Of a stretch of DNA of 64,000 nt, positions 6,622-46,695 are shown piece after piece. Both the position numbers and the translations under genes were made by a program. Origin of the DNA: Candidatus Roizmanbacteria bacterium. GTDB taxonomy: Bacteria > Patescibacteriota > Microgenomatia > UBA1406 > GWC2-37-13. Location: contig JACRJL010000003.1 of NCBI GenBank assembly GCA_016215445.1, positions 62,001 through 126,000 of the forward strand, written 5' to 3'. Positions within the stretch are counted from its first letter, which is position 1, and each line of letters starts with the position of its first letter. Under the pieces are notes generated by a model. That model searched no databases, was not told where the DNA came from, and worked only from the letters and a program-made list of their open reading frames with translations.

Positions 6622-8388
6622 ATGAACATATTTGACTTATTTTCCAAATCCAGTAGTAAACCAGGAACAAACGGCCCCAAACCAACGGGTGCAAACAGCA
6701 TGGCTAATTTTTTAGCAGCCGGTTCTGTATCAACTAAAGACTTAGTTGCCCCTTCTTATATTGAAGTAGATTTTAATCATTTAAAAATTGACGAGAAATA
6801 TTACCGGACTATGTATGTAGTTGGTTATCCCCGTTATGTTTCCGCCAACTGGCTTTATTCCCTTATTACCTTTGACCATCCTTTATACATCTCAATGTAT
6901 ATTTACCCAACCGAGTCAAAAAATGTCCTTGACGACCTAAAAAGAAAGATTGCCGAAATGGAAGCAACCATCGAAGGTGATATTAAGGCCGGCAAAGTGG
7001 TTGATCCAACTGTCCAAGTCGCCCTTGATGATGCCTTGGCTCTTCAGGCTGAATTGGCCAAAGGAGCGGAAAGATTTTTCCAGTTCGGCCTTTATATTAC
7101 TATTCCAGCTGACACTCTCGACCAACTTAACCAACTGACTAAAGAAGTTGATTCGGTTTTATCGTCTCTTTTGATAGTCGCCCGCCAATCTACTTTGGAA
7201 ATGGAGGAAGGTTTTAAATCAACCCTACCTCTTTTTTATGACAAACTTGCTGTCTGGCGCAATATGGATACAACTTCGCTTGCGACTACTTTCCCATTTG
7301 CAACAGCTTCACTCACCCGCAACGAAGGTATTATGTACGGCATGAATGAACACGACGGATCGTTGATTATTTTTGACCGTTTTACTTTGGAAAACGCCAA
7401 CTCTGTCATCTTGGGAAAATCAGGAGGAGGAAAAAGTTTCTTGGTCAAACTCGAAGCTTCGAGACTCTTAATGATGGGAACAGACGTCATTATAATCGAC
7501 CCGGAAAACGAATATGAAAAATTAACTAAGTCCATGGGTGGAGAGTTTGTGGTTTTTTCAAATTCTTCCCAATTTAAAATCAACCCATTTGATTTGGAGA
7601 AAACCAATGCTGGTCCAGACGAGCTTTCAAACAAAATTCTTGACCTACATTCGTTAATGAGAGTGATTATGGGCGAACTAACACCCTCACAAGACGCCTT
7701 GCTTGATCGAGCCTTAGTCCTAACCTATAAAGAAAAAGGAATAACCCAAGATATTGAAACTTTTAAAAATGAACCACCTCTTCTTGAAGATTTATTTAAG
7801 GTATTTATTGGAATGGAAACAGCTGAAGGAAAAGAGTTGGCCGACCGTCTAGAGAAGTTTGTTTCAGGATCAGCATCAGGAATTTTTAACCAAAGGTCTA
7901 ACTTTGATATAAAAAATCCGTTTACTGTTTTTGGCATCCGCGACCTTGAAGAAAACTTGCGACCGGTTGCCATGTATGTTGTTCTGGACTACATTTGGAA
8001 TCGTGTCAGACGAGACCCGAGAAGACGCGTTCTTGTTGTCGACGAAGCCTGGTATTTGATTAAGCAAAAAGATTCTGGAGCCTACCTGCATTCTTTCGCA
8101 AAAAGGGCAAGAAAGTATAAATTAGGACTGACAACAATCACCCAAGACGTCGAAGATTTCTTGGCCACAGACGAAGGAAAGGCAATCATAACAAACTCTT
8201 CTTTACAGATTATTCTAAAACAGTCAACTGCGGCAGTGGAAAAAATTGCCGAGACATTTTACTTAACTGGTGGAGAAAGACACTTTCTCCTTTCTGCTGG
8301 GGTTGGTGAAGGGCTTTTCTTTGCCGGACACTCCCACGTAGGCTTTAAAGTAGTTGCTTCAGAAGAAGAAAAGACTTTAATAGAATAG
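6622..8388 (+). CDS. virB4: VirB4/TraC-family T4SS ATPase
   Basis: A 588-residue cytoplasmic ATPase of the VirB4 family, which powers assembly of and transport through type IV secretion channels. Walker A is ILGKSGGGKS near residue 264 and Walker B is RRRVLVVDEAWYLI near residue 475. The conserved ITQDVEDFL follows about 30 residues after Walker B. It is the third gene of the prgI operon and ends one base before the oppositely oriented S1 gene. Confidence 0.93.
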   Translation: MNIFDLFSKSSSKPGTNGPKPTGANSMANFLAAGSVSTKDLVAPSYIEVDFNHLKIDEKYYRTMYVVGYPRYVSANWLYSLITFDHPLYISMYIYPTESKNVLDDLKRKIAEMEATIEGDIKAGKVVDPTVQVALDDALALQAELAKGAERFFQFGLYITIPADTLDQLNQLTKEVDSVLSSLLIVARQSTLEMEEGFKSTLPLFYDKLAVWRNMDTTSLATTFPFATASLTRNEGIMYGMNEHDGSLIIFDRFTLENANSVILGKSGGGKSFLVKLEASRLLMMGTDVIIIDPENEYEKLTKSMGGEFVVFSNSSQFKINPFDLEKTNAGPDELSNKILDLHSLMRVIMGELTPSQDALLDRALVLTYKEKGITQDIETFKNEPPLLEDLFKVFIGMETAEGKELADRLEKFVSGSASGIFNQRSNFDIKNPFTVFGIRDLEENLRPVAMYVVLDYIWNRVRRDPRRRVLVVDEAWYLIKQKDSGAYLHSFAKRARKYKLGLTTITQDVEDFLATDEGKAIITNSSLQIILKQSTAAVEKIAETFYLTGGERHFLLSAGVGEGLFFAGHSHVGFKVVASEEEKTLIE

Positions 8389-9471
8389 TTATCTATACAT
8401 AACAGGTTTTTCTTTTTGAGGAAGAACCAAACTCATTCTTCTTTCTTTTAGAGAGACTCGCTCTATAAAGGCCTTTATTTTTTGTCCCATTTTAAGATCT
8501 TCATTTCCCGTCAACTTGGAAATATGGATAAGACCTTCCACTCCCGGTTCAAGACGGATAAAATAACCGTATTTTTCCTTACGGACAACCTCTCCTTCAA
8601 CCTCTTTATCCTTAGGATACTTCTCTTCGATCTCTTTCCAAGGATCAAGAGTTAGTCTTTTTAAGGAAAGGTTCAATTTAAGGTCTTTTTCGTTTTTTTC
8701 GACGACATAAACGTCAATTATGTCTCCTACTGTGACATAACTTGCCGCATTGGAGACTTTTTCCCAGGAAATCTCGGAAATATGAATTAGACCTTCGACG
8801 CCTTCAACCTCACAGAAAACTCCAAACTCAGACGCACCCAAAACCTTGGCCTTATAGGTTTTTCCTTCTTTAATAGCGTCAAATTTCTTTTTTAGGTCTT
8901 TTTGGGAAATTTTTAGAACCGAGGCTTTTTGTGATACGACTAGTCGGTTTTTTTCTTTGTCAACCTCAAGTATCTTTACTTTAATTTTTTGGTGAACTAA
9001 CTTCTCCGGGGCACTTATAAAAGGTTCTGTTAATTGGATTTTTGGAATAACCCCTCTTATTCCCATAAAATCAATGAAGACCCCACCCTTGCCATAGTCA
9101 CCGCAAATTACCTCAATCTCTTCTTCTTTCTCTTTCTTCTCTGTTAAAATCTCCCACTTTCCTTTTTCAAAAAACTTTCTCAAAGAAACAACTGGAAAAC
9201 CGTTTTTTGATTCCTCGCTTATAACTCTCACCAATATTTTATCTCCCTGCTTTAAATATGGTAGATATGTAGAAACTTCCCTAATCTCAAGCTCCCCTAA
9301 AAGAGCGTGGGCTTTAGCGCCGACGTCAAAAACAATTCCTTTTTTGGATAAAGAAACGATTTTAGCTTCGATCTCCTTGCCTTTTTTTAAGATAGTGGGT
9401 TGCTTTTTCTTGAGAAGAGCCTCCATGATGTTAATTGGGGCTTTGTCTTTTTCTTCTTTCTTTTTAGGCAT
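8389..9471 (-). CDS. rpsA: 30S ribosomal protein S1
   Basis: A 360-residue protein made of four S1 RNA-binding repeats, at about residues 30-95, 110-180, 200-270 and 285-350. The third and fourth have typical sequences (GVFCEVEGVEGLIHISEISW and YFIRLEPGVEGLIHISKLTG). Enterobacterial S1 has six repeats; four are common in other phyla. S1 helps mRNA bind the 30S subunit. Unlike most neighbours the gene has a 5' leader with an AAGGAG sequence and a hairpin. It is tail to tail with virB4. Confidence 0.93.
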   Translation of the reverse strand: MPKKKEEKDKAPINIMEALLKKKQPTILKKGKEIEAKIVSLSKKGIVFDVGAKAHALLGELEIREVSTYLPYLKQGDKILVRVISEESKNGFPVVSLRKFFEKGKWEILTEKKEKEEEIEVICGDYGKGGVFIDFMGIRGVIPKIQLTEPFISAPEKLVHQKIKVKILEVDKEKNRLVVSQKASVLKISQKDLKKKFDAIKEGKTYKAKVLGASEFGVFCEVEGVEGLIHISEISWEKVSNAASYVTVGDIIDVYVVEKNEKDLKLNLSLKRLTLDPWKEIEEKYPKDKEVEGEVVRKEKYGYFIRLEPGVEGLIHISKLTGNEDLKMGQKIKAFIERVSLKERRMSLVLPQKEKPVMYR

Positions 9472-9506: not shown

Positions 9507-9606
9507 ACAGATTTAATAATATACCAAACAACTAATTAATTCTCAACACGAAATAAAACAAGAGGTCTTGTGTTTTTTTGAACAATATGTTATATTATAG
9601 GGCGTT

Positions 9607-10467
9607 ATGGATAATGCCTTATTACCATCTCTGGTTGAGAGGTTTATAAAAAATCTTGAAGCCCAAGCAAAATCATCTTTTACTATCATAGCCTATAAAA
9701 AAGATCTTGAACAGTTTGTCGGTTTTTTGACGGGAAAAGAGATCCAAGATATAAGAGAGGTAAAAAAAGATCAGATAAACGCCTTTATTGACAAACTTAT
9801 TGTCGATTCTTACACTAAAAAATCAGCTTCAAGAAAACTCAATTCAATTCGCACTTTTTTCCGTTACCTAAAACAGGAGGGAATTATTGACCAAAACCCC
9901 TCTCTCGACGTCTCCCATCCAAAATACGTTCAATCACCGCCTCGCATTTTTACCAAACTTGAGTATCGCGCTTTAAGAGACTTTGCCAAAGAAGACATGC
10001 GCACCTATGCTCTAGTGGAGATCCTACTCCAAACCGGAATGAAAATTGGTGAGCTGTCTAATCTAAGAACAAACGACGTCAATGATTCAATGATTCATAT
10101 CCGTGATTATGGTAAAACTACAGGAAGAGATATTCCTTTGAACAAGGCGGTTAAAAAAGCTGTTGATGATTATTTAAAAACTAGACCAAGCTCAAAAGAC
10201 GATAGACTTTTCATCACTAGAACAGGGCACCCGCTTTTAATAAGAAACATTCGTCAGATTATTGCCCGCTGTTTTCGTGAGGTTGGCATTGAAAAAGCCA
10301 CTGTTAATGACCTGAGAAATACATTTATTGCTCACCAATTAAAACAAGGGGCTTCGGTCGAATATATAGCTCGTTTGGTTGGTCACAAAAGACTTTCTTC
10401 TACAGAACGCTTCCTAAACTTAGTTAAAGAAGAGGTCCAAAAAAAAGAAGGTTTGGGCGAGCTTTAA
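9607..10467 (+). CDS. XerC/D-like tyrosine recombinase homolog lacking catalytic residues
   Basis: A 286-residue protein with the two-domain plan of Xer recombinases: an N-terminal SAM-like DNA-binding domain (about 5-90) and a catalytic-fold domain (about 105-280). Key residues are altered. The first catalytic Arg is Lys146 (TGMKIGEL instead of TGLRISEL), the H-x-L-R-H box reads NDLRN (Asn234, Arg237, Asn238), and the nucleophilic Tyr position is Phe269 in SSTERFL. Arg237, His260 and the beta-hairpin Lys are kept. The protein probably binds DNA but cannot cleave by the usual route. It stands directly upstream of dnaA. Confidence 0.85.
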   Translation: MDNALLPSLVERFIKNLEAQAKSSFTIIAYKKDLEQFVGFLTGKEIQDIREVKKDQINAFIDKLIVDSYTKKSASRKLNSIRTFFRYLKQEGIIDQNPSLDVSHPKYVQSPPRIFTKLEYRALRDFAKEDMRTYALVEILLQTGMKIGELSNLRTNDVNDSMIHIRDYGKTTGRDIPLNKAVKKAVDDYLKTRPSSKDDRLFITRTGHPLLIRNIRQIIARCFREVGIEKATVNDLRNTFIAHQLKQGASVEYIARLVGHKRLSSTERFLNLVKEEVQKKEGLGEL

Positions 10468-28211: not shown

Positions 28212-28599
28212 TGGTGGAGATGGCGGGAATTGAACCCGCGTCCGAGAAAACACCGATATAAATTTTTAGTTGGGGTTAGATTGTTTTTACTCTTGCTTAC
28301 CCGCTTAAACAATCAAATCGGAGTAAACAGTCAGTTAGGGTTTGTCGATCTTAAATACAACTGAATACTTTTTAAGACCTTATTCCGATTGGTTTTCCCC
28401 TCATAAGATTGAATCGGACAAAATCAAGTGAGAGGGCGATTAGTTAACGTAAGCAAAGTTCATATTTGCATATGATCTTGCCAACATAGCTTCTCGCAAT
28501 TCTGACAATTGCTTATCAGTTATTTTTTCCGTTTAACGCAACAGGTGCGCCCCAACGATTTATAAAAGTGCAAATTTCCCGTCGATGCCTGGCATCCCC
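28212..28599 (-). ncRNA. ssrA: Transfer-messenger RNA
   Basis: The minus strand forms the tRNA-like ends of tmRNA. The 5' GGGGATG pairs with 3' CATCTCC, followed by the discriminator A and an encoded CCA (28214-28212). The T arm is GCGGG-TTCAATT-CCCGC, and the conserved 5' stretch CATCGACGGG is present. The mRNA-like part has a short ORF ending at 28440. The RNA is 388 bases long and rescues stalled ribosomes together with SmpB, whose gene is just upstream on the same strand. This RNA accounts for the only long non-coding stretch of the window. Confidence 0.96.
28440..28469 (-). other. tmRNA tag-peptide reading frame
   Basis: GCA to TAA encodes ANMNFAYVN. A GCA three codons upstream would add ARSY. 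The core NFAY resembles common tags such as those ending NFAYAA or NYALAA, but the last two residues read VN rather than AA. The resume codon is chosen by eye. Confidence 0.6.
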
Positions 28600-45462: not shown

Positions 45463-46551
45463 ATGATTAATCTAGACGATCAAGAAAAACTCAAGAATTT
45501 AGACAAAAAAAATACCTACGGATCGGTTGAAGAGCTTTCAAAACAATGTGTTCATGCTTTCGAAGACGCAAAAAAAATTAAGGTAGACGATTCTTATAAG
45601 GGTATAAATAAAATTGTTATGACTGGTATGGGCGGATCAGGTTTAGGGGCAAGAATAATTGATGGAATTTTTGGGCTTGAACTTAAATTTCCTTTTTTTC
45701 ATTTACATGACTATGATTTGCCTTCATGGGTAGATGAAAAAACCCTTGTGGTATGTTCGGCTTTTTCAGGTGAAACAGAAGAACCGGTTCAGACTGCGCA
45801 TCAAGCTCTAAAGAAAGGTTGTAAATGGATGACGATAGGTTCTGGTGGGACAATAATAGAATTGGCAAAAAAATACAAAGTACCTTACTATCATATTATT
45901 CCGACTTATAACCCATCAAAACAACCGCGAATGGCGATTGGTTATTCTGTTGTTGGTCAGTTAATGTTGGTTGCAAAAACCGGTGCCATAAAATTTTCAA
46001 AAGGAGAAATCGATCTTCTAGTTAAATCAATGAGTAAAGTAGTTGATGATTCTAAGATGTCTGTAAAAATAGATGACAATCAAGCAAAACAAACTGCTTT
46101 AAAAATGTATAAGAAAAATGTGATTTTCGTTGCTTCCCGTCATTTGGTTGGCGCTGCTCACACAACGAAAAACCAATTAAATGAAAACTCTAAAAATTTC
46201 TCAACGATTTTTGAAATTCCCGAATTAAATCATCATTTAATGGAAGGATTAAGATATCCTGAATCAAATAAAAAAGACATGATATTTTATTTTGCCGAAT
46301 CGGACCTTTATCCTGAAAGAATTATAAAAAGATACAAAATTACCGAGGATGTTGTCAACCAAAACGGAGTTGGCTATGTTACTTATAAACCGAAATCATC
46401 AGATCCCCTAGCTCAAGTATTTGAATACCTCCAATTTGGAGGATATGTTTCTTTTTACCTTTCTATGTTGAATGGCTTGGACCCGGCTCCGATTCCTTGG
46501 GTTGATTATTTTAAAGTTAAATTGGGTCAATCATTGGGTCAATGGAAATGA
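45463..46551 (+). CDS. Bifunctional phosphoglucose/phosphomannose isomerase (SIS fold)
   Basis: A 362-residue protein with two SIS sugar-isomerase domains. The first has MTGMGGSGLGARIIDG and LVVCSAFSGETEEPVQTA, the phosphate-binding sequences of the archaeal-type glucose/mannose-6-phosphate isomerase family. The C-terminal half contains ELNHHLMEGL with the catalytic-type His and Glu. It links glycolysis and mannose donors. TATAAT is 6 bases before the ATG. Confidence 0.88.
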   Translation: MINLDDQEKLKNLDKKNTYGSVEELSKQCVHAFEDAKKIKVDDSYKGINKIVMTGMGGSGLGARIIDGIFGLELKFPFFHLHDYDLPSWVDEKTLVVCSAFSGETEEPVQTAHQALKKGCKWMTIGSGGTIIELAKKYKVPYYHIIPTYNPSKQPRMAIGYSVVGQLMLVAKTGAIKFSKGEIDLLVKSMSKVVDDSKMSVKIDDNQAKQTALKMYKKNVIFVASRHLVGAAHTTKNQLNENSKNFSTIFEIPELNHHLMEGLRYPESNKKDMIFYFAESDLYPERIIKRYKITEDVVNQNGVGYVTYKPKSSDPLAQVFEYLQFGGYVSFYLSMLNGLDPAPIPWVDYFKVKLGQSLGQWK

Positions 46552-46567
46552 GTTAGTTTTATTAATT

Positions 46568-46695
46568 GGCTTTGTTTCTGGGAATGCTGTGTAAATCAGC
46601 AGCTGTGCCGCAACGGTAACCCCTTCGGGGAAGCCCGAGACCACCAAAGCCTTATCAGGTGCCGCCTGGTACCTGACCCCGTGCAGGGACGATTT
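46568..46695 (+). promoter_or_regulatory. Cobalamin riboswitch
   Basis: The closing stem GGCTTTG (46568-46574) pairs with CAAAGCC (46645-46651). Inside are GGGAA, the TGTG-x-AA-x-TC segment, CCGCAACGGTAA and the B12-box-like AAGCCCGAGACCACC, in the order of the cobalamin aptamer. A second hairpin (TCAGGTGCC/GGTACCTGA, 46655-46676) then precedes the AGGGA ribosome site of the 46696 gene. Translational control is therefore likely. Confidence 0.88.

Follow-up and report, generated by a model that had tools for sequence, protein, structure and literature searches.

The window analyzed here, 64,000 nucleotides of a Candidatus Roizmanbacteria genome, carries a gene for a Xer-like protein that is flanked by a ribosomal protein S1-like gene and by dnaA (Table 1). 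A conserved element lies over the promoter of the Xer-like gene. As an earlier, sequence-only reading of this DNA had stated, the Xer-like gene is directly upstream of dnaA, which starts 65 nt downstream of it; this adjacency proved to be lineage-specific. The S1-like gene is adjoined by a VirB4/TraG-like ATPase gene, which in many Roizmanbacteria is conserved alongside the Xer-like gene. Elsewhere in the window, we observed a tmRNA with a long predicted tag peptide ending in AYVN, where tmRNA tag peptides usually end Ala-Ala, and a cobalamin riboswitch.

Table 1. Features of the window and of related loci (window positions unless a locus is named).
Feature	Position	Strand	Remarks
VirB4/TraG-like ATPase gene	6622-8388		adjoins the S1-like gene
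Ribosomal protein S1-like gene	8389..9471	-	divergent from the Xer-like gene; promoter conserved only in near relatives
TTGTGT, putative -35	9568..9573	+	17-nt spacing to the TATATT hexamer; TTG at this distance from a -10 hexamer in 55/56 loci
TATGTTATATTATAGG, conserved element, candidate operator	9586..9601	+	over the -10 region, adjoins the start codon
Xer-like protein gene, 286 aa	9607..10467	+	ATG start; K146/K170/N234/R237/H260/F269; read as a non-cutting Xer paralogue
Pair of facing DnaA-box-like sites before dnaA	10503..10523	+	comparison for the look of a conserved control site
dnaA	10533..11867	+	TIGR00362, E 4.5e-129; neighbour in this lineage only
tmRNA	28212-28599	-	predicted tag peptide of 25 residues
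Cobalamin riboswitch	46518-46662		40 bits (gathering score 31.5); precedes the gene at 46681
TGnTATACTATAGGG promoter and hairpin leader	L193 near 1500	-	
TGnTATACTATAGGG promoter and hairpin leader	L264 near 1190; L267 near 1206; possibly L271		

The protein has the fold of a tyrosine recombinase of the Xer type, with an N-terminal core-binding domain and a C-terminal catalytic-domain fold. Evidence for this comes from Pfam matches (Phage_integrase PF00589, E 1.4e-25; N-terminal SAM-like PF02899, E 2.8e-15), from an AF2 model (mean pLDDT 90.5, with only residues 280-286 poor) and from comparison of that model with solved structures. The top match was XerA (Z 23.0; rmsd 15.5, the domains being arranged differently), and other matches included the Tn1549 integrase on DNA (R225K, Z 22.5; Y379F, Z 22.0), XerH (Z 22.3), SroF (Z 17.0) and MrpR (Z 14.3). 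Scores against the NCBIfam equivalog models fell below the cut-offs for XerD (157.7 against 329.6), XerC (155.3 against 335.15) and XerA (143.6 against 220). The 155-158 bits reached with the XerC and XerD models are less than half of what those models require.

Catalytic positions were read from a 110-row alignment composed of 75 distinct family rows and 35 rows of non-family Xer and integrase proteins. The Arg-Lys-His-Arg-His-Tyr set of active Xer proteins (XerC/D/A) is absent from the window protein, which has K-K-N-R-H-F at these positions. The substitutions proposed in the sequence-only reading, Arg to Lys146, His to Asn234 and Tyr to Phe269, are therefore correct, as is its statement that the Xer fold and the remaining active-site residues (Lys170, Arg237 and His260) are kept. 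The Asn234 change falls in the HxxR motif, and the second active-site histidine is the retained H260. A shifted nucleophile was ruled out since the last tyrosine of the protein is Y253, with none in residues 254-286. A pseudogene was ruled out by the open frame and by pairwise dN/dS values of 0.02-0.12 against 11 close relatives, although dS was saturated in these comparisons and unresolvable in a twelfth pair. Judged from these ratios, the gene is under purifying selection and not decaying.

The substitutions are also common to the relatives of the window protein. In the 75 distinct family rows, the complete catalytic set never occurs: the nucleophile position is Phe in 57 and Tyr in 18, the HxxR His position holds Asn in 69 rows and Gln in the other 6, and Arg237 is retained in all 75. 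An orthologue (E 9.2e-72 or better) was found in 52 of the 57 genomes searched, up to class level, and the five genomes lacking one (G002, G008, G014, G044 and G045) are each less than 90% complete. In a sample of the phylum, 35 of 145 Patescibacteria genomes had a family match at 1e-48 or better, separated by a clear gap from the remaining genomes, whose best match was 1e-26 or worse. Near loci of the family are mostly from Candidatus Roizmanbacteria. Searching by title or abstract in the open-licence literature, we found no paper dealing with this family.

A quick maximum-likelihood tree of 82 rows placed 58 family rows on one side of a branch with an SH-aLRT of 100 (L182 was omitted from the tree and from the upstream sets). 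On this tree, the family is a clade separate from canonical Xer. Distant members are mostly R-x-N-R-H-Y, a pattern that keeps the tyrosine, the two arginines and the second histidine. Deviations from it are a first-position Thr (L172, L174), K-F-R-H-Y (L186-L188) and a retained HxxR His (L183). In G107 and G179, an additional copy that has diverged further (L184, L185) has Phe as the nucleophile residue and Tyr in place of the second His. Many family members other than the window protein lack the hairpin Lys or have a shortened hairpin. Parsimony required four changes on the tree for Tyr, eight for the first Arg and three for the His position. Together, these counts and the residue patterns across members indicate that the chemistry has been lost stepwise, with the His and the hairpin Lys lost widely, and the Tyr and Arg later and mainly in Roizmanbacteria. 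Among 59 family sequences 42 columns are invariant, including the last residue, Leu286 (59/59), and positions in the stretches SASRKLNS and LLIRNIR, which probably align with DNA-facing parts of Xer.

Upstream of the gene, the 16-mer TATGTTATATTATAGG occurs exactly once in the genome of the window, and with two mismatches allowed it has 11 matches against 4 in the control. The form of TATTATRGG written TATTATAGG occurs no more than 25 nt from the start in 42 of 54 family genes and in none of the 573 other genes of the same loci. The shorter TATRGG is found within this distance at 52 of 54 family genes but only 3 of the 573 others, while the usual TGnTATAAT shows the opposite distribution (0/54 against 36/573). 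At the order and class level, TATTATRGG was present within 150 nt upstream of 15 of 20 family genes, compared with 1 of 229 other upstream regions. Outside the class it was found in only 1 of 31 upstream regions, and we dropped the idea of a phylum-wide TATTATRGG operator. A weaker CCYATA signal outside the class (20/31 against 22/229) was chosen post hoc, and the enrichment of CC[CT]ATA (27/40 against 11/138; shuffles, mean 8.0 and largest 14) likewise concerns a motif picked after looking.

Of 57 upstream sequences in relatives, 56 offered an anchor in TATTATRGG or a similar form (L128 had none, and L104 and L110 were too short for the base counts), and because the base counts rest on this anchoring they cannot themselves prove invariance. 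The counts of TATTATAGG, TATRGG and TATTATRGG given above are free of this bias. Relative to TATTATRGG, the -10 hexamer of 46 loci begins 2 nt ahead of that of 9 others, with one locus ambiguous, and TATTATRGG is retained in both registers. Since the motif stays constant while the -10 register shifts, the conserved block is more than a -10 hexamer alone. Because the element overlaps the -10 region, ordinary promoter constraint accounts for part of this conservation. For comparison, in the same genomes the dnaA promoter combines a variable -10 with conserved DnaA-box-like sites, and the S1 promoter drifts. We read the TATTATRGG element over the promoter, described here for the first time, as a putative autoregulatory operator.

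A few other transcripts are likewise preceded by strong promoters of this kind (TGnTATACTATAGGG), and the TATTATRGG site could belong to another protein. Among near-matches of the element in the genomes of relatives we found no recurring second target gene. These near-matches (CCYATAGTATANCATA) resemble ordinary extended -10 promoters standing before unrelated genes or leaders, and they were rejected as further targets. The S1-like gene was also dropped as a second target, its promoter sharing TGnTATATTAT in close relatives only and drifting elsewhere. In three genomes (G000, G004 and G003, with a variant in G020), a conserved leader containing a small hairpin, ATGTTT-AAGGGACG-AAACAT, lies downstream of TGnTATACTATAGGG. 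No Rfam family reached threshold in a search with this leader, which is perhaps an undescribed small RNA or leader.

The genome of the window also encodes a second, intact Xer of 312 amino acids (C2:209026), a protein that the sequence-only reading had suggested looking for together with a dif site. This locus is one of 18 intact-Xer loci, all of which retain Arg, His, Arg, His and Tyr. The dif site fared less well: a pattern search gave 37 one-mismatch matches against 18 in the control, none of them a clear dif site. The intact xer gene has a conserved promoter element of its own, TCGTTTAATATAA or a near form (L001, L056, L057, L062, L064), which occurs exactly once in the genome of the window. 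This element resembles a dif half-site, and because of this resemblance the intact Xer may likewise control its own gene. As a guide to dif, TCGTTTAATATAA was too common when mismatches were allowed (100 matches against 86 in the control) and was dropped.

With an intact Xer in the same genome, the window protein might serve as its catalytically silent partner and activate or restrain it after the two have paired, at dif or at some other site. In XerCD one Xer subunit activates the other, and Xer subunits contact each other through the extreme C-terminal region, which is conserved in the family as far as the invariant Leu286. Against such a partnership stand the missing dif site, the distance between the family and the intact Xer found in the same genomes (identity about 24-26%) and the clustering of TATTATRGG-type sites at the family's own gene. 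We regard a silent partner as unlikely, though it is the strongest of the alternatives.

The position beside dnaA had suggested to the sequence-only reading a role at the origin or as an architectural protein. Consistent with an architectural or timing protein at the replication origin, dnaA or dnaN is found in the fetched stretch of 49 of the 56 named loci (L073-L128), and the minimum of the cumulative GC skew falls near 11-13 kb of the window. However, nearly all of these loci are of one GTDB family, and no dnaA was seen in the fetched stretches of families other than that of the window. The orientation of dnaA-dnaN relative to the Xer-like gene varies among L073-L128, being co-oriented downstream, convergent or divergent (L091, L096); because all three orientations occur, the stretch near the origin is one that has been rearranged repeatedly among close relatives. 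In a set of 73 neighbourhood loci, 46 have a gene of about 110-150 amino acids (cluster C1) back-to-back with the Xer-like gene, a count that includes duplicates of one genome, and some of L035-L054 share genomes with named loci. This C1 gene is absent from all 12 loci of the window's GTDB family in the same set. All six C1 members tested matched DivIC (septum formation initiator) above the cut-off, and the divIC gene of the window's genome lies elsewhere (C3:135792). Because the other families usually have divIC and not dnaA beside the Xer-like gene, the dnaA adjacency is best read as derived and lineage-specific. An origin role is accordingly improbable as the general function of the family. 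The other half of that interpretation, DNA binding without cutting, remains the best reading from sequence comparison because the substitutions are real, shared and under purifying selection in a genome with an intact second Xer.

Non-canonical strand transfer, at least in distant members, can be set aside as very improbable: those members retain Tyr, both Arg and the second His, and Cre H289A is reported still to be recombination-competent (PMC4381057), but the window protein lacks any Tyr from the nucleophile position onward, most family rows have Phe at that position, and the hairpin Lys is lost or its hairpin shortened in many others, a residue without which Cre (K201A) is reported inactive in the same paper.

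We put the chances at about even that the protein is an old non-cutting Xer paralogue that has turned into a sequence-specific DNA-binding regulator and represses its own gene through TATTATRGG. This reading draws on the fold, the lost catalytic residues, the purifying selection, the separate clade, the intact second Xer and the gene-specific promoter element, and by analogy on the precedents of MrpR, IntS and the Cre mutants. Such a protein would bind duplex DNA through its retained positive residues and would form no phosphotyrosine bond. Bound to TATTATRGG at its own promoter, it would repress its own transcription, and in the ancestral arrangement, with divIC back-to-back with the gene, this binding could have tuned divIC as well. 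In Roizmanbacteria, the gene would then have moved beside dnaA/dnaN and S1 with its element retained.

A broader proposal is more tentative and, in our view, less probable than not by some way: that the family represents a patescibacterial chromosomal regulator of transcription or the cell cycle derived from Xer by stepwise loss (Lys and His, then Tyr and Arg), with self-repression through TATTATRGG and an ancestral pairing with divIC that linked chromosome processing to division. For its physiological task, the ideas most worth testing are division control via divIC and the silent partnership with the intact Xer. Phages of the SPbeta type provide a documented case of a recombinase turned regulator; the present family would be a vertically inherited chromosomal case in which intermediates are still visible and catalytic loss can be traced one residue at a time. 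Bacteria with few known regulators would also gain a candidate regulator whose operator is predicted. Public annotation probably names such genes Xer recombinases and credits them with dimer resolution.

Among known systems, XerA, XerC and XerD share with the window protein the fold, the overall length, Arg237, His260 and the hairpin Lys, which the window protein has kept. Unlike them, it lacks the nucleophile, the first Arg and the HxxR His, and it falls in a separate clade. The Cre mutants R173A and K201A are described as binding and synapsing without recombining (PMC4381057). IntS of prophage KplE1 is a tyrosine recombinase reported to repress its own promoter via sites that overlap it (PMC2951348), an arrangement that we predict for the window protein; IntS is, however, described as an active integrase whose site is attL, whereas the window protein is associated with no mobile element and, by its residues, with no catalysis. 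SroF of phage phi3T (PDB 9rd5, 9rgl) shares the fold. MrpR/YopR, the DNA-binding master repressor of the Bacillus prophage SPbeta (PMC10516654; PDB 8a0a, 8bpz), is reported to combine a recombinase fold with a lack of recombination activity, and like the window protein it has a broken catalytic set with Asn at the HxxR His position. According to the same report, MrpR is a phage protein that retains the Tyr and Lys and lacks the first Arg, whereas the window family is chromosomal and vertically inherited, has lost the Tyr in Roizmanbacteria and would act as a repressor by prediction. Neither MrpR nor SroF was among the phmmer matches to PDB chains at E<=0.001, so that both match in fold only. 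Thus, we do not file the window protein as a member of the MrpR or IntS type, and by analogy MrpR is its nearest documented counterpart.
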